DNA from: Elusimicrobia bacterium GWB2_63_16
Lineage (GTDB): Bacteria > Elusimicrobiota > Elusimicrobia > Elusimicrobiales > UBA9959
Direction of reading: 5' to 3'
Assembly: GCA_001799715.1 (NCBI GenBank)
Contig: MGTZ01000002.1
Span: 1 to 39,693 of the forward strand
Length of the DNA stretch: 39,693 bases
The notes under the pieces are model-generated. The model saw nothing but the letters and a program-made list of their open reading frames with translations, made no database searches and had not been told where the DNA came from. Both the position numbers and the translations under genes were made by a program. Positions within the stretch are counted from its first letter, which is position 1. Every line of letters begins with the position of its first letter. Below, piece by piece: positions 7,865 to 18,603 of this stretch.

Positions 7865-8878
7865 CTACGGAAGATCCACGCATTTTCGCCAGGACGCAGT
7901 CCCGGGCTTTGCGGCGCAGCAGTTGACCGCTCCCTCGGCCTTTGTGGGAAGCCTGACCGGCCAGTTGAGCTGTTTCAGCGTCCGGAATTCTTCCCGATGA
8001 ACAGCATGGTACTGTCTAACGCCGCTCTCGGTCCTGTCGTACACGTAAAACCCGCTTCGGCACATCAGCCTTACCAGCGCCGCCCTCTCTTCGGAAGTGA
8101 AGCCGCCGCCGATATCCGCCGATATCCCGTAGGCGTGGTGCATGTTGTCTGGCTGCCAGTCCCCTTTCGCGTCGAACGCCCCGCCCCACGGCAGGCTGAT
8201 ATTGCCTATCTCAAGAAGCGGCGACGAAGGGTGTCCGCTTTTCCACGCGGCGGCCAGGTCGGTCAGCCCGGCAATGGCGGCGGTCGAAGCGTAATGATTC
8301 TCCGGATGCGCCGCCGTGGCGCCGGTCAGTTTGTACAACCGGTCGTTCGCCGGCATCGGGCCGATCCCCGGCGTTCCTACGTCCAGGAAATAGGTGAGCG
8401 TCGGCTTGCGCGTCGCGCCGTGAACAGACACGGTGAACGCTCCCAGCACCTTCAATCTGACGGCGTAATTTACCGGAGCCATATGAACCCGGAAACTTTG
8501 GTCCTGGGTAAGCCGCGGCGAGCGCACCGTGGCGCCATCGAACCTGGCTACGGTCTTCGTATCGGGCCAGGCGGGATAATAAAACAGCGCGGGGGGAGGA
8601 TCATTATGCCGGTGTCCGGTTTTCACGGCATCAATCTCAACGGTAACATCCGCCGTCCAGGTGTACACACCTGATGACGGCACGAAGCCGAACTTAAAAT
8701 CCCATCCGCTCCCCGGAAGGGCTGAGCGGCTGGCGGTCACGTGGCGGGACGTGTCCGCGAACGTCGAAGTGGAAGATCGGAACTTCACGGTTCCGCTGTC
8801 GAGGATATGCAGCATGTCAGCGCGGGCCGGCCCCGGCAGAACGCACAGAACGAGCAGCAAGAACAGTTCTTTCGTCAC
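7865..8878 (-). CDS. Exported protein with LAS-metallopeptidase-like C-terminal motif (last gene of RiPP-like operon)
   Basis: 337 residues with a signal peptide (1-20, ARA cleavage). Residues 21-170 look like beta-rich extracellular sequence. Residues 225-300 contain 'GNISLPWGG', then H248-x2-G-x-S-x-D255, the first zinc motif of M15/MepA-type (LAS) peptidases (H-x6-D). A later H291-x2-H294 could supply the third ligand, although the family normally has H-x-H. A D-Ala-D-Ala or cell-wall endopeptidase-like activity is therefore possible but not secure. Four Cys (273, 320, 321, 333) may form disulfides. It follows the M50 protease gene by 10 nt, making it the last gene of the sigma-54-type operon. 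It could release or act with the matured peptide outside the cell. Confidence 0.75.
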   Translation of the reverse strand: MTKELFLLLVLCVLPGPARADMLHILDSGTVKFRSSTSTFADTSRHVTASRSALPGSGWDFKFGFVPSSGVYTWTADVTVEIDAVKTGHRHNDPPPALFYYPAWPDTKTVARFDGATVRSPRLTQDQSFRVHMAPVNYAVRLKVLGAFTVSVHGATRKPTLTYFLDVGTPGIGPMPANDRLYKLTGATAAHPENHYASTAAIAGLTDLAAAWKSGHPSSPLLEIGNISLPWGGAFDAKGDWQPDNMHHAYGISADIGGGFTSEERAALVRLMCRSGFYVYDRTESGVRQYHAVHREEFRTLKQLNWPVRLPTKAEGAVNCCAAKPGTASWRKCVDLP

Positions 8879-8888
8879 AACTCCTCCC

Positions 8889-9995
8889 TTACCTCCGGAC
8901 TTCCTTCCATTCCAGGCGGATTTCCTGGAACCGCCGCAAACTGGCGATGAAGCCCATGATCAGGAAATACCCCCACAGTACGGTCGAATATCCGCGGGAA
9001 AACAAATTGTCCGCCGAGCCGGACGCCTTTGCGAACCTCTCCGGGATACCCGTTAACCCGAGGCCCAGCCGCCATAAAAAATAAACCGAAAAAGCCGTAA
9101 ACGCGGCAAAGTATACGGTGCGCACGATTCTTGTCAGGCGGTTTTTTGAGAATGAGCCCTGCAAATCCTTATAAAGCCAGTATCCGTCCGTCTTGAAAAA
9201 CGGGTTGAGATTGAAAAACACCAGGACCATTATCCAGCGGACAGCTTCGGCAAACACGAAAGCGCCGGTAAGGGAAGCCGCGATCAGCAGCAGAAGCAGA
9301 AATATCCCCTGGAAAATAAAACCGCCGCAGTCTATAAGCGCTTTGTCCCGGAGCGGAACGGTTTCAATGCCGGAAACATTGGTGTAAAAGACGGGAAAGA
9401 TCAGGTATACGGAGAGCCCTATCGGCCTGAGACCTATGCCTGCGGCGGCTGCCGCAAAAGAATGCCCGAGTTCATGGGCCAAACCGCCGGCAAGCATCAA
9501 TAGAAACACGTAGATCAGGTCCGGGCGCCCTGTCAGCGGCGCCGGGATCGCCTGGTTCCCGGCCAGGGCAAGAAATGAGCCCCACAACAGCCCGACCAGG
9601 GATAACCCCGCCAGGATCGAGGTCCGGCGCTTTTTGTCGCCGGGAATAGTCACTCTTAAAAAGGAAAGCGCCTTTTCCTGGATCTGCGGAGTAATTATCT
9701 GGATTCTGGGGTTAAGGAGCCTCTTTAGAATAGACGTCGGACCCGGGCGGTGCTTTTCCTTCAAAGCGCCGATCGCGGCAAGATGGATGAAGATCTCCTC
9801 CGGCGCGTTAAGACCTAATTCCGACAGGCGTTTCAAAAACAGGCCGCGGGGGCCTTCGGCCGGGAGTTCTTCTATGAGCCCCGCCGTTTCAGCGCTTAAG
9901 CGATAGAAGGAAGTCGCGGTAATGGCAAGGCGCTCCCCGCCCGTGCCGGCCGCGTAGGCGGATTTCAGGTGATTATCGTAAATAACTTCGGGCAT
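8889..9995 (-). CDS. M50 (site-2 protease-like) membrane metalloprotease of a peptide-maturation operon
   Basis: 368 residues. The zinc motif HELGH is at 174-178 inside a transmembrane helix, and N264-P-F-F-K-T-D270-G supplies the third ligand region, the same NPxxxxDG arrangement as in YydH/SkfX-like peptide-associated M50 proteases. About six membrane helices follow residue 130. Residues 20-80 form a soluble segment of the kind 'FYRLSAETAGLIEEL...FLKRL...FIHLAAIGAL', resembling PqqD/RRE-type winged-helix leader-binding domains; this is inference. Such proteases usually cut or help export a RiPP precursor. It lies 23 nt after the radical SAM gene and 10 nt before the exported M15-like protein, in one operon. 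Confidence 0.88.
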   Translation of the reverse strand: MPEVIYDNHLKSAYAAGTGGERLAITATSFYRLSAETAGLIEELPAEGPRGLFLKRLSELGLNAPEEIFIHLAAIGALKEKHRPGPTSILKRLLNPRIQIITPQIQEKALSFLRVTIPGDKKRRTSILAGLSLVGLLWGSFLALAGNQAIPAPLTGRPDLIYVFLLMLAGGLAHELGHSFAAAAAGIGLRPIGLSVYLIFPVFYTNVSGIETVPLRDKALIDCGGFIFQGIFLLLLLIAASLTGAFVFAEAVRWIMVLVFFNLNPFFKTDGYWLYKDLQGSFSKNRLTRIVRTVYFAAFTAFSVYFLWRLGLGLTGIPERFAKASGSADNLFSRGYSTVLWGYFLIMGFIASLRRFQEIRLEWKEVRR

Positions 9996-10018
9996 GACAT
10001 TGCCGCGGCCGGCCGCAG

Positions 10019-11419
10019 TTACGCGAGGCGCGGGGCGACGGGGCGCTCTTTCTGGGGTATATCCCGCCCATACCCGCGCTTAATGGAATCCAGTATGACG
10101 CTTTTAAGGTCATCGCATTTGACCTTGAAAAGGTCTCCCGTTTTTAAACGGCATTGTACGCCGCATTGGCCGCCGCAGGCCAGCGCGACGGAGCAGCGCA
10201 GGCAGTCCGGCAGATTCTCGAGATGCCTGCGTTTATAGAGCTCCCGCTGCGGCAGGAATTTTACCCCGGCTTCGCCGATGTAACCCACCCGCAATTCCGG
10301 GTTTCCCGCCTCCTCCGTGCACGCGTAAATGTCCCCGAAAGGGTCGATTACAAGATAATTCTGATAGACCTGCATGCAGCACGCCGTGCGGGTCAAACCG
10401 ACGCCTTTCGTCAGCTTGTAAAGATGGCGGACATCCGTGGCTCTCAGGGTGCTCGGGCAGTCCAGTTCAAGTCCCATGTCGCATATTTCCCGGGCCATCT
10501 CGGCAAGCCCCATGAAATGGGGGGATTCCGCCCTGGAGATGCCTTCATGCAGGGGATAAGCGTAAATATGGGTAAGGGGATTGCCGGCGATCTTTTTGGC
10601 TCTCAACTCGTCGAACAGGCCCGGTAGATCCCCTATCTTGTCCCTGTCCACGTTAAGGCGGAGGTCGATCGATGTCCCCCTGTCCAGCAACAGGCGGATA
10701 TTAGACAGTATCTTGTCGAAGGTGGGAAGGCCGTTGGCCGGAACCCTGGACCTGTCATGCGTCCGGCGCCAGCCGTCGAGAGAGATCTGCGTCTTGTTGA
10801 CCTTTCCTCGGCCGGGGCCGAAAATATCCGGCATGGCGTCCACGGTGGTGCCGTTAGTGGTCGCGACCACCGGAACGGGCCTTTTGCCCACGTGCCAGAG
10901 CGCCCGGCGTATTACGGCTTCATTCGCCGGCAAAAACGGCTCTCCGCCGTAAAGCGAAAGGGAGAGCTTGGATATTCCGGGCAGCAGCGACGGCAGATGT
11001 TTGTCAAAGATGTCGTCGACCAGTTGCGGCGACATTATCTTCCCGAAGTTTTTCTGGCGGTGGTTCCGCTGAAAGCAATAGCCGCAGGCGAGGTTGCAGG
11101 TGTAGCTGGGGAGAAGGATTATTCCGCCGGAAGAGGGCTGCTTTACCTGGCTGTTGTGCAGGCCGGCCGCGAGCTCCCTGAATTGTTTCAACTCCGCTTC
11201 CGGCGGCAGCGCGGTGATGTGGCCGCGGCCCGCAAGGAAATCCAGGTTGTTCGGGGAAAGTTCGCGGAGGCGCGCGTGTTCGCCGGATGCCAGGATCGCC
11301 CCGAGCGCTCTCGGCACCTCGTCGAGGCAGCCGTTGATGCCGCTGAAAAGGAGGTCCCTCTCGCCGCAGTCCAGGCCGATAACGTTGAGATACCTGCTGA
11401 TGTAGTACTCTGGTTTCAT
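10019..11419 (-). CDS. Radical SAM/SPASM peptide-modifying enzyme
   Basis: 466 residues. The radical SAM cluster is C108-N-L-A-C112-G-Y-C115 (CxxxCxxC), followed by 'LSLYGGEP' (SAM binding). The C-terminal SPASM domain shows CC...YACTE, then the canonical C-x2-C-x5-C-x3-C in 'CLRCSVALACGGQC' and a last Cys in VKCDD, so two auxiliary [4Fe-4S] clusters are expected. The first 90 residues carry no cluster and may recognise the leader peptide. Enzymes of this type form thioether, C-C or epimerised linkages in ribosomal peptides (sactipeptide/ranthipeptide class). The neighbours are a Cys-containing repeat peptide and an M50 protease, which supports a RiPP role. The exact chemistry cannot be read from sequence. 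Confidence 0.93.
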   Translation of the reverse strand: MKPEYYISRYLNVIGLDCGERDLLFSGINGCLDEVPRALGAILASGEHARLRELSPNNLDFLAGRGHITALPPEAELKQFRELAAGLHNSQVKQPSSGGIILLPSYTCNLACGYCFQRNHRQKNFGKIMSPQLVDDIFDKHLPSLLPGISKLSLSLYGGEPFLPANEAVIRRALWHVGKRPVPVVATTNGTTVDAMPDIFGPGRGKVNKTQISLDGWRRTHDRSRVPANGLPTFDKILSNIRLLLDRGTSIDLRLNVDRDKIGDLPGLFDELRAKKIAGNPLTHIYAYPLHEGISRAESPHFMGLAEMAREICDMGLELDCPSTLRATDVRHLYKLTKGVGLTRTACCMQVYQNYLVIDPFGDIYACTEEAGNPELRVGYIGEAGVKFLPQRELYKRRHLENLPDCLRCSVALACGGQCGVQCRLKTGDLFKVKCDDLKSVILDSIKRGYGRDIPQKERPVAPRLA

Positions 11420-11443
11420 TGATCTGTACTCTGTTTTCCGGTT

Positions 11444-12202
11444 TTACTTCGCGGCGGGGGAGGGATTCTCGCAGGCCTTGACCTTGTAGCCCTGGCTCTT
11501 GAAGTTCTGGCAATAGATCTCCGTGTGCTGGCTGCTCATGAAGATATTCTTATCCATGGCATAGGCTTTGTCCGCTGCGGCGGCGGCTTCGGCGTACCTT
11601 TTCAGCCAAAGCAAAGTCGACGCCTTGGCGCGAAACAGCTCCGGCGACTCGACCAGGCGCTGCGCGCGGTTCAGATCGGCCAGGGCTTCCTCATGGCGTT
11701 GCGACTTGGACAAAGCCTGGAACCTGAGGATATAGACGTGGTGTACGGTGTCCCTCTCGTTCTTGTTTTTGAAATCGACCTCGTAAGGTTTTTGCGGCGC
11801 GAAGGCCTTTTCTATCCTCGCCATTAGGTCGTCGGCTTCGGCATAAGCCGACGGATAGTCGCCTTTCGCATAGGCGAGCTGGCTTTTCGCGATAGCGTAG
11901 GCCTCGTCGTTCTTTTGGTCGGGAACGTCCTTGCCCCTGTTTTCCAAAAGCTCTTCGGCGGTTTTGGTGTCCCCCTTTTTAATAAGCCTGGCCAGCCTTA
12001 TAAAAAACTTGTCGCGGCGCGTCCTGGTCAGGGATTCAAGCATGCTCGCCGCGGCGTCCGAAACGTCCCCTTCGAAATTCCCGCGGTCCGGACCGGCTAT
12101 CGACGCGGTATTGCCGGGACCGGCGCCCGCGGCTGCCGCGCCGGCCGGGGCGATCCACAAAAAAAGGCAGATCAAAAAAGACATAGACGTTTTATTGTAC
12201 AT
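11444..12202 (-). CDS. Exported TPR-like protein in the RiPP-like operon
   Basis: 252 residues with a signal peptide (about 1-25, SFLICLFLWIAPAGAAAAG) and three or four helical tetratricopeptide-like units ('AIAKSQLAYAKGDYPSAYAEADDLM', 'RFQALSKSQRHEEALADLNRAQRLV', 'ASTLLWLKRYAEAAAAADKAYAMD'). The C-terminus carries two Cys (231 and 245). TPR domains bind peptides or proteins, so a periplasmic receptor, chaperone or export helper for the neighbouring peptide is possible. AGGAG lies 7 nt before the ATG. The gene is 77 nt downstream of the precursor gene and 24 nt upstream of the radical SAM gene, on the same strand. The family is not recognised beyond the TPR pattern. Confidence 0.82.
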   Translation of the reverse strand: MYNKTSMSFLICLFLWIAPAGAAAAGAGPGNTASIAGPDRGNFEGDVSDAAASMLESLTRTRRDKFFIRLARLIKKGDTKTAEELLENRGKDVPDQKNDEAYAIAKSQLAYAKGDYPSAYAEADDLMARIEKAFAPQKPYEVDFKNKNERDTVHHVYILRFQALSKSQRHEEALADLNRAQRLVESPELFRAKASTLLWLKRYAEAAAAADKAYAMDKNIFMSSQHTEIYCQNFKSQGYKVKACENPSPAAK

Positions 12203-12279
12203 ATTTCACTCCTGTTTATCTCCGCGGGTAACCGGCCGGGATTGCCGCCATGGCCTTACCGCCGCGCCCCCGCGCCGGA

Positions 12280-12600
12280 CTACAGCGGCGTCTCTTGGGG
12301 CTCCGTATCGGGCTCCGTATCGGGCTCCGTATCGGGTTCCGTATCAGGCTCCGTATCTGGCGTATGCGGGCACGGAGGCGGCGGCGGCACATCCGGAACA
12401 TCGCCTGGGTCTGGCGAGGTGGGGAAGCAGGTTTTCCCCATGTTGCAGCCCCCCTTGTCGAACAGGTCTTCCGCCAGCATTTGAATCGATACGGCCTCAT
12501 ACTCGACGCGGTCTTTTTTCTTCTCGAGCGTGAGAACCGCGACCCCGGAGAAATTCAATGATCTGATCAGGTATTCCTTGCGCGTTTCCGCTTGTTTCAT
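12280..12600 (-). CDS. Candidate RiPP precursor peptide with three Cys and a (PDTE)n tail
   Basis: 106 residues, no signal peptide. Residues 1-50 are a helical, charged leader-like region ending in DLFDKGG. Residues 51-79 hold Cys 52, 58 and 77 with a Pro/Asp-rich stretch, including five consecutive Pro (72-76). Residues 81-100 are five PDTE units, encoded by a 12-bp tandem repeat, then PQETPL. AGGA lies 6 nt upstream of the ATG, and a sigma-54-type promoter lies 47-62 nt upstream. It is the first gene of an operon with TPR, radical SAM/SPASM and M50 protease genes, which is the main reason to call it a precursor. The Gly-Gly before Cys52 may mark leader cleavage. It could instead be a cell-wall-spanning or unmodified peptide. 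No homologue is recognised. Confidence 0.7.
   Translation of the reverse strand: MKQAETRKEYLIRSLNFSGVAVLTLEKKKDRVEYEAVSIQMLAEDLFDKGGCNMGKTCFPTSPDPGDVPDVPPPPPCPHTPDTEPDTEPDTEPDTEPDTEPQETPL
12301..12360 (-). repeat. 12-bp tandem repeat (five units) coding PDTE in the candidate precursor
   Basis: Three exact units of ctccgtatcggg (plus-strand reading) at 12301-12336 are followed by two one- or two-base variants (12337-12360). The unit length is a multiple of three, so copy number can change without frameshift. Confidence 0.95.
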
Positions 12601-12646
12601 AGATATTCCTGCCTATATAGTCTTTAGTGCAACTTTGCCATTACGG

Positions 12647-12662
12647 AGCATTTATTATGCCA
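12647..12662 (-). promoter_or_regulatory. Sigma-54-type promoter of the RiPP-like operon
   Basis: On the minus strand TGGCATAATAAATGCT: GG at -24 (12661-12660) and GC at -12 (12649-12648), exactly 12 bp apart as sigma-54 requires. Only one base of the TTGC element departs (ATGC). Directly downstream is CCGTAATGGCA, shared with the sites at 13774 and 18648. Transcription would start near 12636, 36 nt before the precursor ATG. Confidence 0.7.
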
Positions 12663-12749: not shown

Positions 12750-13700
12750 TCATTTTGTATTAAGCAGCTCTACCAACTTCCAGCGGAAAGCATCAGCCGC
12801 CACGGCAAGATTCGCTTTTTTAAATGAAAATTCAATCCCTATTTCGGAGTCGGAAGAATCGCTGGCGCGGTACTCGGAGGCGTGTATCGCTATAACATAA
12901 GGAAGTTTATCCTCGAAGATAAACATGGGGCTGCCGGAAGAGCCGCGGCTGTTGCTGCAGTTGTGCAGCCACTGGCCGAAGCTGGTAGGTCCCGAAACGA
13001 TAGTGCAGCCAGTTTCAAAGGAGGCGGACGAACCGGAGTAGAAATCCTCGCTATAACTGACGGCATAGAGCTGGGCAATGCGCGGATCGGGGAGGGCCTT
13101 AACGCCCATCCATCCGAGATTATCGCCCAAAGGCTTTGCCAGGCGCATGAGTGCCCAATCCCCGCTTTTATCGGTGGGGTATGAGCCCCACCAGGCGAGG
13201 GTGACACCGCTGGAGTAAGCCGAAGCCCCATTGGTAAGGTTCGGACGGAACACAAAGGCCCCGGCCATTAGCGTATTCGTGCTTTTGTCCAGTATGCAGT
13301 GGGCATTGGTGAGGATGAGGTCGCGGCTTACAAGCGCGGCGGTACAATGGCCTCCATTCGGCAAGTCAAGGCGGCCAATGGTATTCCATGGGTATTGGGT
13401 GCTGGTAACCTTGCCCCTCTTGTTCCCGGTAAAGACATTTTTGCCGATCATGCCGCTAGGCGAGAAAGGGGAATCGGCGAGGGCCGAGTTCGGGTTATAT
13501 CCTTTGGTAAAGCCGCCCGCCTGCTCCGGCACGGACGCCGGTTCGGACGGGGAGACGGCAGGCGCGGCGCTGTTCAACGCCTCGAAAAAAACAGGGCTGG
13601 CGGTGCGGCGTTCCCCGGTGAAATCCGGGGTGTATTGGCCGGCCGAAGCGGTTGCGACCGTGAGCATCCAGAAAACATTCAGCGCTGAAACGAATTTCAT
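12750..13700 (-). CDS. Secreted trypsin/V8-like serine protease (S1 family)
   Basis: 316 residues with a signal peptide (1-20) and a Ser/Pro-rich propeptide-like segment (about 21-95). The chymotrypsin fold shows the complete triad: H134 in LTNAHC, D181 in GDWALMRL and S255 in SRGSSGSPMF. Cysteine pairs 119/135 and 232/248 are placed as in S1 proteases. The GSSGSP form of the serine motif is like glutamyl endopeptidases (V8 group). It has AAGGAG about 10 nt before the ATG and its own sigma-54-type promoter. The gene lies 150 nt upstream of the candidate precursor on the same strand with no clear terminator between, so readthrough into that operon is possible. It may process the exported peptide or be a co-regulated exoenzyme. 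Confidence 0.92.
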   Translation of the reverse strand: MKFVSALNVFWMLTVATASAGQYTPDFTGERRTASPVFFEALNSAAPAVSPSEPASVPEQAGGFTKGYNPNSALADSPFSPSGMIGKNVFTGNKRGKVTSTQYPWNTIGRLDLPNGGHCTAALVSRDLILTNAHCILDKSTNTLMAGAFVFRPNLTNGASAYSSGVTLAWWGSYPTDKSGDWALMRLAKPLGDNLGWMGVKALPDPRIAQLYAVSYSEDFYSGSSASFETGCTIVSGPTSFGQWLHNCSNSRGSSGSPMFIFEDKLPYVIAIHASEYRASDSSDSEIGIEFSFKKANLAVAADAFRWKLVELLNTK

Positions 13701-14077
13701 ACCAGGTATCTCCTTGAGCTTTTCTTAAGCGGCTGCCGGCGCTATTCACGTCCGCTGCCGTATTGCCCAAACAGGGCAATTTTTATGCCGGTCCTGGCGT
13801 ATAGCGGGATTCGCGTGGTTTTGTGGGTAAAAACCCTGTTTTTCGGGGGGGGCGATGATAGCCTCGCGTATATTTCCTACAATTAAATTATAACGACCTG
13901 GCCGGGAAGATAATTAAATCCGCTGGCGCGGAGATCGGTGTCGAAAGTTTCTGGGGGGAGAGGCGCCCTGCCTGCGCCTTACAGCGGGCGCGGGCTCCGG
14001 CCGGAATCAGGATCCCCACTGTGGTGTAATAAAACCGGGGCTCCCGCGTAATAACGTTGGGAAGCGCCGAAAAATAT
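13701..14077. other. 377-bp intergenic region between the protease and the ECF sigma operon
   Basis: The left part holds the protease ribosome-binding site and its sigma-54-type promoter (13774-13790). The rest has A/T-rich patches (13870-13893, 13908-13920) and a G/C-rich segment (13950-14010), but no open frame with a start signal and no convincing -35/-10 pair for the sigma gene. A GGAATC word (14003-14008) before TGTAAT is a weak candidate for an ECF-type promoter. I see no RNA gene. Confidence 0.6.
13774..13790 (-). promoter_or_regulatory. Sigma-54-type promoter of the secreted serine protease gene
   Basis: On the minus strand CGGCATAAAAATTGCC: GG at 13789-13788 and GC at 13777-13776, 12 bp apart, with a perfect TTGC. 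Downstream CCTGTTTGGGCA resembles the other two sites. Transcription would start near 13764, leaving a leader of about 64 nt with AAGGAG before the ATG at 13700. Confidence 0.72.
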
Positions 14078-14572
14078 ATGGGCTTTGAAGAGCTGTACGA
14101 CAAATACTTCCGGCGGGTATACAACTATATCCGCTACCGCGTCCTCGCGCGCGACGCGGCTGACGACCTGGTCTCGGCCGTGTTCGAGAAGGTGCTGGAT
14201 AAGTTCGACGCTTTCGACCAGGGCAAGCCCGTGGAGCCGTGGCTGTTCGCCATAGCGCGCAACACGCTCAACGACTATTACCGGCGGCGGGCGGTGCGCG
14301 TCGGGCTCTCCCTGGACGGCTTCGAGGAGAGCATAGCTTCGGGCGAGTCGGTGGAACGCGCGGCCGAGCGCGGCGAAGAGAACGCGCAGCTGTTGGCCGC
14401 GATGAGCGGCCTTTCGGAGGCCGAGCGCGAGCTGGTCGCCATGAAATACGCGCTGGACCTGAGCGCCCGCGAGATAGCCGCGCAGACCGGTCTGACCGAG
14501 AGCAATGTGGGCGTGACGCTGTTCAGGGCGATGAAGAAACTGAGGGACCGGCTGGGGCCGGAGGTCATATGA
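14078..14572 (+). CDS. ECF-type RNA polymerase sigma factor
   Basis: 164 residues with sigma region 2 at about 3-70 ('YDKYFRRVYNYIRYRV...DAADDLVSAVFEKVLDKFDAF', then 'VEPWLFAIARNTLNDYYRRR') and region 4 at about 105-155 ('LSEAERELVAMKYALDLSAREIAAQTGLTESNVGVTLFRAMKKLRDRL', an HTH). This is the layout of small ECF sigma factors. I chose the ATG at 14078, where homology begins; no strong Shine-Dalgarno is present. Its stop overlaps the ATG of the next gene (ATGA), the usual sigma/anti-sigma coupling. The likely targets are its own operon, including the exported repeat-domain lipoprotein downstream, but no promoter of matching type was identified. Confidence 0.93.
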   Translation: MGFEELYDKYFRRVYNYIRYRVLARDAADDLVSAVFEKVLDKFDAFDQGKPVEPWLFAIARNTLNDYYRRRAVRVGLSLDGFEESIASGESVERAAERGEENAQLLAAMSGLSEAERELVAMKYALDLSAREIAAQTGLTESNVGVTLFRAMKKLRDRLGPEVI

Positions 14573-17664: not shown

Positions 17665-18603
17665 TTACTGTATGACGGCGGCGGTTTCCGTTTTGCCCTT
17701 TTCCATGTAGGCTTCGGTGAAGCCTTCGCCCTTGACCTTGAAGCCCCAGTTCACGAAATACTTCTTGGCCTTGGCCCGGAAGTCGGCGGCGTCCTTGTCG
17801 GAGGGGAAGTCGCTCTCCTTGAAGACTATCTTGAAATCCTGCCGCAGCCAGTTCAGCGGGAACTCGAAGAACTTGGTGCCCCTGGACGAGTCGAACAGCT
17901 TGTCCTGCACCAGTTCCACGCCGATATGCACCTTCCTGCCGTCGTATTCGCCGGTGAAGCCGTTGCGGATGGTCAGCGTGAACTCCTTGCGCACGTCGTC
18001 GTAGGAGAAACCGCCGAGCTGCGCCAGGGCGGCGTCGGGATTCTGCGGCTTGCGGGCGCCGGGGTAGAGTTCCACGGTGTAGAGGGACTCGCCCTGCTTG
18101 TCGCGGTAGGTGTAATCGAAAGGGGTCTGCCTGAGCGCGAAAGACCCCTTCTGGGCCTTGAAGTCGTAGCAGACCTCTATGCGCTCCTTGTCGAACTGGC
18201 GCAGCTGCCGGGCGTGAATGACCAGGTTCACGTAAGCCGTATACCACTCGGTGCGGTCATGGCAGTTTGAGGCGGAGATGTACTGCCCGTTGACCATGGC
18301 GCTGGCGTTCTCGCATTCCTGCCAGGAGTAGGCCGCGTCCAGCGAGACCTGGCGGTTGATGGCGGTCCCGTCATTGGAGTCCAGTTCGACGACCTTGCAA
18401 ATCTTGCTCTGCTGCCAGCCGCGGGCCTTTACGCCCGTGCCGATGTCCGAGACCTTGACCTCGGGCGCGGAGACCTTGACCGTTTCTACCAGGCCCCCGG
18501 CGGCCGCTGGCGCGCCGCGCCCGTCGAATTCCACGGCCTGGGCCCCGGCCGCCGCTGTCAGGGCCATCGCCGAAAATACCGCCATGAGCGTCTTTTTTAT
18601 CAT
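17665..18603 (-). CDS. Exported protein of unknown function with sigma-54-type promoter
   Basis: 312 residues from the ATG at 18603, chosen because a clear signal peptide follows (MIKKTLMAVFSAMALTAAAGAQA) with GGGGTGG about 9 nt upstream; a longer in-frame reading would cross the promoter. The mature part is beta-rich with four Cys, including 'KICKVVEL', 'SWQECENASAMVNGQYISASNCHDRTEW' and 'EVCYDFKAQ', and probably two disulfides. The second half contains alternating strands ('EFTLTIRNGFTGEYDGRKVHIGVEL'). No family is recognised. Its promoter closely matches those of the secreted protease and the candidate precursor operon, so it probably belongs to the same regulon. Confidence 0.82.
   Translation of the reverse strand: MIKKTLMAVFSAMALTAAAGAQAVEFDGRGAPAAAGGLVETVKVSAPEVKVSDIGTGVKARGWQQSKICKVVELDSNDGTAINRQVSLDAAYSWQECENASAMVNGQYISASNCHDRTEWYTAYVNLVIHARQLRQFDKERIEVCYDFKAQKGSFALRQTPFDYTYRDKQGESLYTVELYPGARKPQNPDAALAQLGGFSYDDVRKEFTLTIRNGFTGEYDGRKVHIGVELVQDKLFDSSRGTKFFEFPLNWLRQDFKIVFKESDFPSDKDAADFRAKAKKYFVNWGFKVKGEGFTEAYMEKGKTETAAVIQ

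Follow-up and report, generated by a model that had tools for sequence, protein, structure and literature searches.

A candidate ribosomal peptide cassette behind a sigma-54-type promoter in Elusimicrobia bacterium GWB2_63_16 and related genomes

The window operon and its small peptide

The DNA analyzed here, which we call the window, is a 39,693-nucleotide stretch of the genome of Elusimicrobia bacterium GWB2_63_16 (G000:C2:1-39693, where G000 is the genome of the window and Gnnn, Cnn and Lnnn denote genomes compared, contigs and loci). Five open reading frames (ORFs) follow one another on its minus strand with gaps of 77, 24, 23 and 10 nt: a precursor peptide gene (12280..12600, 106 aa), an exported TPR-like protein (11444..12202, 252 aa), a radical SAM/SPASM maturase (10019..11419, 466 aa), an M50 membrane metalloprotease (8889..9995, 368 aa) and an exported LAS-type protein (7865..8878, 337 aa). 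A -24/-12 (sigma-54-type) promoter, TGGCATAATAAATGCT, lies on the same strand at 12647..12662, 62 nt upstream of the precursor gene, and matches 11/12 consensus positions. Genes, spacings and promoter site were all as a preliminary description had given them when the coordinates were re-read. We consider the operon likely to be a cassette for a ribosomally synthesized and post-translationally modified peptide (RiPP) of a previously unnamed Elusimicrobiota family: the set is kept together in related genomes, usually under the same uncommon switch, and is therefore probably a new family of ribosomal natural products.

The protein identities proposed in the preliminary description held to different degrees. 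The radical SAM/SPASM assignment of the 466-aa protein exceeded thresholds, with Radical_SAM over its Pfam cut-off and the NCBIfam SPASM model TIGR04085 over its own (39.1 vs 27), while the Pfam SPASM model stayed under (16.5 vs 21.5 bits). The M50 assignment of the 368-aa protein was sub-threshold in Pfam (21.7 vs 27.2 bits), with the HELGH motif present. The 252-aa protein has a signal peptide by eye, and every TPR match fell under its cut-off; one relative exceeds the TPR_2 cut-off. For the 337-aa protein, Pfam and NCBIfam scans returned zero matches at E<=1, and what we take to be a LAS-type His/Asp motif was assigned by eye only.

Precursors related to the 106-aa peptide were found in 29 copies, 28 of which were compared (the degenerate copy in L047 was omitted). 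They divide sharply into a leader of 29-37 residues, with 56% mean pairwise identity, and a core of 19-76 residues, with 26% mean identity and 2-12 Cys. Cys makes up 0.2% of leader and 12% of core residues, and Pro 0.3% and 13.7%, respectively. In an alignment of 20 precursors, leader residues N16, L25, K27, R31 and E33 were invariant. Copies within the same locus carry differing cores (two each in L031, L033, L044 and L108; three in L052). Some rows of the precursor and enzyme alignments miss the true start: L034 begins one codon inside, and one L052 row one codon before the ATG. In the window, the leader (residues 1-37) occupies 12490..12600, with the border set by us at the end of the conserved block, and the core, including the stop codon, occupies 12280..12489. 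Besides three Cys, this core has five PDTE repeats and a run of PPPPP; the Pro-rich type also occurs in L040, L041 and L112. By sequence, the window copy is thus a Pro-rich, three-Cys outlier of its family.

The small gene is short and repetitive and belongs to no database family, as might be expected if it were a chance reading frame whose proximity to the enzyme is coincidental. We regard this explanation as practically negligible. Judged by nonsynonymous and synonymous substitution rates (dN/dS), the precursor gene is under purifying selection: the window copy and its closest relative, L040, gave 0.24/0.88 (ratio about 0.27), L031 vs L033 gave 0.18/1.18 and 0.09/0.50, and L045 vs L048 gave 0.06/0.60, so that ratios across the four pairs were 0.10-0.27. 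Moreover, the leader is conserved in 29 copies, and precursor and enzyme share 14 genomes. The small gene is real, as shown by its low dN/dS against L040 and by the homologues that adjoin the enzyme in other genomes of the phylum. The 20 aligned precursors fall into no family of Pfam or NCBIfam; the best matches, each in single members, reached only E 0.018 (NCBIfam) and 0.0057 (Pfam), and we rejected membership in a known precursor family.

Conservation of the cassette and its enzymes

A radical SAM profile built from 18 sequences (rows L043, L031, L046 and L035 of this alignment were trimmed) gave hits at 24 places at E<=1e-60, spread over 17 of the 340 phylum genomes. Three of these (L035, L037 and L046) have less than 350 nt of upstream DNA each and were set aside, leaving 21 testable loci. 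In 18 of them, the DNA upstream of the enzyme carries one to three homologues of the small gene: the window, L031, L032, L033, L034, L040, L041, L042, L043, L044, L045, L047, L048, L049, L050, L052, L053 and L108. The pattern that would have spoken against a peptide system, in which relatives keep the enzyme and protease and never the peptide, was thus not what we found. A precursor profile detected 15 of the 340 genomes, 14 of them in common with the 17 enzyme genomes (Fisher p 4e-21, a value inflated by kinship), and in G047, the one genome with a precursor hit alone, the enzyme gene is truncated. The enzyme gene is also truncated in L038 and L039, which, like L047, are decayed or odd cassettes.

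An M50 gene adjoins the enzyme in 21 of the 22 places with readable downstream DNA, the exception being L047; L040 and L051 end too early to be counted, and the M50 genes of L034 and L045 are cut by the contig end. The HELGH and NPxxxxDG regions of the protease are conserved. Counting the window, 13 of the loci compared have a relative of the TPR protein. Among these loci, only the window and L041 combine the LAS-type protein with the cassette, and its relatives (42-62% identity; three in G011, one in G002) occur in genomes without a cassette hit. We therefore consider it a local addition and rejected it as a core part. Of the five-gene set first described, then, the precursor, radical SAM enzyme, M50 protease and often the TPR protein make up the conserved cassette, while the LAS-type gene is not part of the shared set. 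A trypsin-like secreted protease gene lies just upstream of the operon (12750-13700, minus strand) and has a 52% relative at the same place in L040; it was likewise rejected as a core part because it ends before the promoter and was seen with the cassette in no locus but the window and L040.

The leader/core contrast and the linkage to the enzyme (18/21) uphold the RiPP interpretation. They also bear on another explanation, in which the small protein is a Cys- and Pro-rich envelope or redox protein that is matured by the radical SAM enzyme and retained by the cell with the TPR protein as partner. Such a role would fit the long, repetitive, Pro-rich core of the window copy, the exported TPR protein in 13 loci, the lack of a transporter common to the cassettes compared, and the other sigma-54 sites in G000, which head genes for secreted proteins. 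It is harder to reconcile with a sharp leader/core boundary followed by hypervariable cores, with tandem copies whose cores differ, with cores as short as the 19 residues in L108, and with the M50 gene in 21 of 22 places, and we regard it as improbable.

Radical SAM (CxxxCxxC) and SPASM cysteines are invariant in the 18 aligned enzymes. The best NCBIfam match of the window enzyme was the geopeptide maturase model TIGR04280 over residues 8-436, followed by TIGR04463, PapB and CefB; the window enzyme and the sisters L031, L050 and L053, the four scanned, stayed under all four cut-offs. An AlphaFold model of the window enzyme (predicted local distance difference test, pLDDT, 80.6) retrieved CteB first in a fold search, then TigE, anSME, SuiB and ChlB, with EpeE from rank 27. 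Residues 11-65 of the model form three strands followed by three helices, with a long match to CteB, and we take this order to resemble that of RiPP recognition element (RRE) domains.

The closest known systems are the ranthipeptide/SCIFF-type maturases (CteB, PapB NF047865, TIGR04463), which share the radical SAM core, SPASM domain, N-terminal domain and Cys-rich substrate; of these, the thioether-forming CteB (5wgg) matched best by fold. In contrast to these systems, the Elusimicrobiota precursor has no NCBIfam match, the cassette adds an M50 protease and sigma-54 control, and the window enzyme scores far below the PapB (96 vs 340 bits) and TIGR04463 (96.1 vs 525) cut-offs. The same holds for the geopeptide model (100.7 vs 400 bits); the word geopeptide appeared in no Creative Commons (CC)-licensed PMC paper searched. 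For the M50 protein, the best NCBIfam match was the daptide M50 (NF041824), at 33 vs 300 bits; other daptide enzymes were not searched for.

The preliminary description had compared the locus to the YydFGH type. The arrangement is indeed analogous to that of the epipeptide systems (YydFGHIJ, EpeX-EpeE-EpeP), in which a radical SAM enzyme and an intramembrane M50 protease stand beside a short peptide. An epipeptide-like system, in which the enzyme would epimerise residues and the M50 protein cleave and export the product as for YydF/EpeX, would account for this arrangement and for the weak LiaK/YydH match of the M50. A review describes the M50 EpeP as the presumed protease and exporter of EpeX, whose production survived the deletion of EpeP (PMC10885120). 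The likeness does not extend to the proteins: the M50 scores 28.6 vs 225 bits against the YydH/LiaK model (17.5 in the sister L031), the fold search places EpeE no higher than rank 27, after CteB, TigE, anSME and SuiB, and the cores are Cys-rich. The Elusimicrobiota cassette also has a SPASM enzyme, a different precursor and no shared ATP-binding cassette transporter among the cassettes compared. We therefore consider an epipeptide-like system very improbable.

Proposed sigma-54 control and the putative product

Sigma-54 sites were scored on 12 consensus positions, with at least 11/12 counted as a site. Only two such sites occur in the window, and that of the operon is one of them. In 13 of 18 cassettes the first precursor is preceded, at a distance of 26-160 nt, by a TGGCATAAAAATTGCT-like site, and such a site also heads the precursor in four of five loci that have no full enzyme gene alongside it (L039, L109, L110 and L111; not L112). 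Over both strands of the 27 loci scanned there were 27 sites in 685,446 positions, precursor sites included. A stricter pattern, TGGCAYNNAWATTGCW, which the window site does not fit, occurs five times in G000 vs zero for the reversed pattern. NtrC-type activators, confirmed by Pfam, stand beside four sister cassettes (L031, L050, L108 and L155). The conserved sites and these activators support the sigma-54 control that had been proposed from the window promoter.

Elsewhere in the window, a 12/12 site (18663-18648, minus strand) precedes a gene for a secreted-type protein without a Pfam match (17665-18603, minus strand); a relative (47% over 236 aa) lies behind a similar site on G000:C62. The lone precursors of L110 and L111, from two genomes, adjoin a secreted-type protein gene that has its own sigma-54 site, and a kinase-like gene lies near.

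Several observations weigh against the RiPP interpretation. Five of the 18 cassettes lack a site of at least 11/12 (L048 scores 10; L041, L043, L044 and L047 score 7), and no activator gene was seen adjoining the window copy. The window core has only three Cys and is repetitive, and may therefore undergo another modification or be in drift. In L051, the 7.2 kb upstream of the enzyme contain no precursor of this family; some 6.3 kb ahead of the enzyme there is a sigma-54 site followed by an unrelated 40-aa ORF. L036 pairs a 32%-identical enzyme with two different tandem short ORFs, and the distant L113 has no precursor in its readable 0.76 kb. In L047 the M50 is absent and the precursor is degenerate or fused, inside a 442-aa ORF, and precursors occur without this enzyme alongside in L109-L112. 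The RRE-like domain predicted at the N-terminus of the enzyme rests on the model. Finally, an RRE on the M50 protein was considered and rejected: its topology was suggestive, but Foldseek gave no match at E<=0.001 (TbiB1 with leader peptide, E 1.7), profile comparison with the enzyme N-terminus gave 0.3-0.5% probability, and a PDB profile search returned nothing relevant.

The tandem short ORFs of L036 (3828-4315, reverse strand numbering) accompany a 10/12 site, TGGCATTAAAATTGTT. They carry another repeated leader (SNIIESVEFLA...) and a CDCILKK motif, and perhaps form a sister precursor family.

In the mechanism we propose for the RiPP cassette, transcription by sigma-54 RNA polymerase would begin with the precursor gene and depend on a two-component activator of NtrC type, which for the window copy would act in trans. 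The radical SAM/SPASM enzyme would bind the leader, probably via its N-terminal RRE-like domain, and cross-link the core, most likely at Cys as thioethers because of its nearest relatives and the core composition. The M50 protease would then remove the leader and, by analogy with EpeP, may help release the product. The exported TPR protein might act outside the cytoplasm on or with the product, and the LAS-type protein of the window copy could be an extra trimming peptidase; both roles are guesses.

The product may be an antimicrobial or a signal. An antimicrobial aimed at competitors would explain the hypervariable cores and multiple copies, which fit diversifying toxins, and the epipeptide EpeX is called antimicrobial in the account cited above (PMC10885120). 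We recognised no dedicated immunity gene or shared exporter, and sister cassettes stand beside kinase and binding-protein genes; an antimicrobial is quite possible, though we lean against it. The reading we favour is a putative RiPP of the thioether type, which its own circuit may sense as a signal. Studies of ranthipeptides and quorum sensing in clostridia are reported in a review (PMC8102284).

A second RpoN and a possible peptide circuit

The genome of the window carries two RpoN genes (PF04552). That on C48 is followed by an apparent PAS-type kinase, assigned by eye, and an activator relative (32% identity). The other, preceded by a sigma-54 site and accompanied by a divergent activator, is on C10, a 35-kb contig that also holds a second cassette; the island spans 1460-16354 of L174. 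The second cassette consists of two precursors, a radical SAM gene and an M50 gene, followed by a DUF4097 protein and an M16 pair. The contig further encodes a second activator, 55% identical to the first (both Pfam-confirmed), a YcaO-domain ORF (30.5 bits, cut-off 25.7), an OppA-like protein (SBP_bac_5, 93.3 bits) and a kinase gene that reads as overlapping ORFs beside a masked stretch.

By our count, near-full-length relatives of the C10 RpoN (at least 53% identity) occur in 31 of 101 genomes searched, G000 included. We fetched 21 of their neighbourhoods, with 22 genes, 21 of them testable: 16 have a site of at least 11/12 within 230 nt, and 17 a divergent activator. Paralogue, activator and cassette share one island in G000, G055 (L155) and G193 (L108), the last with 49% identity and from another family of the class; for the remaining cassettes, the paralogue lies on another contig or further off, or was not fetched. 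M16 pairs occur in eight of the 21 fetched loci and could, as a guess, be shared leader peptidases. Among the OppA-like candidates scanned, only that of G000 exceeded the Pfam cut-off; matches were weak in L163 (21.3 bits) and L108 (13.4 bits), and the proteins upstream of kinases in L052, L164 and L166 gave no such Pfam match. The candidate alignment had mixed in two beta-lactamase-family proteins (L163:11691, L168:1940), and its PDB search was not used.

With kinase and OppA-like genes beside sister cassettes, and an RpoN paralogue behind its own type of site, a self-sensing circuit is possible. Put in full, cells would communicate by means of RiPPs through a dedicated peptide circuit whose sigma factor, a second sigma-54, activates itself; we advance it tentatively and think it rather unlikely in that form. 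The OppA-like protein would bind the modified peptide or a fragment outside the cytoplasm, a histidine kinase and NtrC-type activators would relay the signal, and the linked RpoN paralogue would direct transcription of its own gene, of genes for secreted proteins and of several unrelated families of precursor and radical SAM enzyme. The proposal draws on the shared islands in G000, G055 and G193, on the sites and divergent activators of the paralogue genes (16 and 17 of 21) and on other small-peptide/radical SAM sets near the paralogue that start at such sites.

Two further short-peptide families were observed in these neighbourhoods. One ends in SDALEMPSWD(E/D)GCYVR (L167:3542 and L170:6914, with a variant at about 911 of L051, reverse strand numbering); its members lie directly behind sigma-54-like sites, that of L167 with TGCCA, and radical SAM genes follow in L167 and L170. 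The other begins MKI(R/K)LIKDVERRGIFYGSRNFC... (L166:3994 and L170:1213, with a diverged form at L168:8531), again behind sigma-54 sites and adjoining radical SAM genes. One member of each family was scanned, with no NCBIfam match.

Sigma-54 promoters and an enhancer-binding protein also drive natural-product genes in Myxococcus xanthus, where such promoters are reported as targets of sigma-54 and the activator Nla28 (PMC7910581). Those are polyketide and non-ribosomal clusters, whereas here the genes are RiPP cassettes with a linked second sigma-54 gene; the present cassettes would thus tie ribosomal natural products to sigma-54 as well. A 2025 survey of sigma-54 regulons gives multiple rpoN copies in 5.04% of organisms, and its main text does not contain "Elusimicrobi" (PMC12316311); in a 2011 survey, Elusimicrobium minutum figures as a diderm that lacks sigma-54 (PMC3162934), and the count for Elusimicrobiota in an Antarctic survey is four clusters (PMC8692599). 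Among the matches listed in the CC-licensed PMC literature, there was no paper on this cassette family. The RiPP family would be new and of a known general kind, and its unusual regulatory setting may be the more important finding. An uncultured phylum would gain a family of natural products whose leader is recognisable, which allows its products to be sought by sequence; should the linked sigma-54 paralogue serve these peptides exclusively, one leader motif and one promoter motif would together predict the whole peptide regulon.

Two other regulatory features were noted in the genome of the window. On contig C4 (L120, 3895-7956), a sigma-54 site is followed by carbamoyltransferase, pyridoxal phosphate enzyme and argininosuccinate-synthase-like genes in a row. 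In the window itself, 14057-14572 (plus strand) encodes an extracytoplasmic function sigma factor whose best NCBIfam match was the BldN-like Sig70_famx2 (137.4 vs 206.45 bits).

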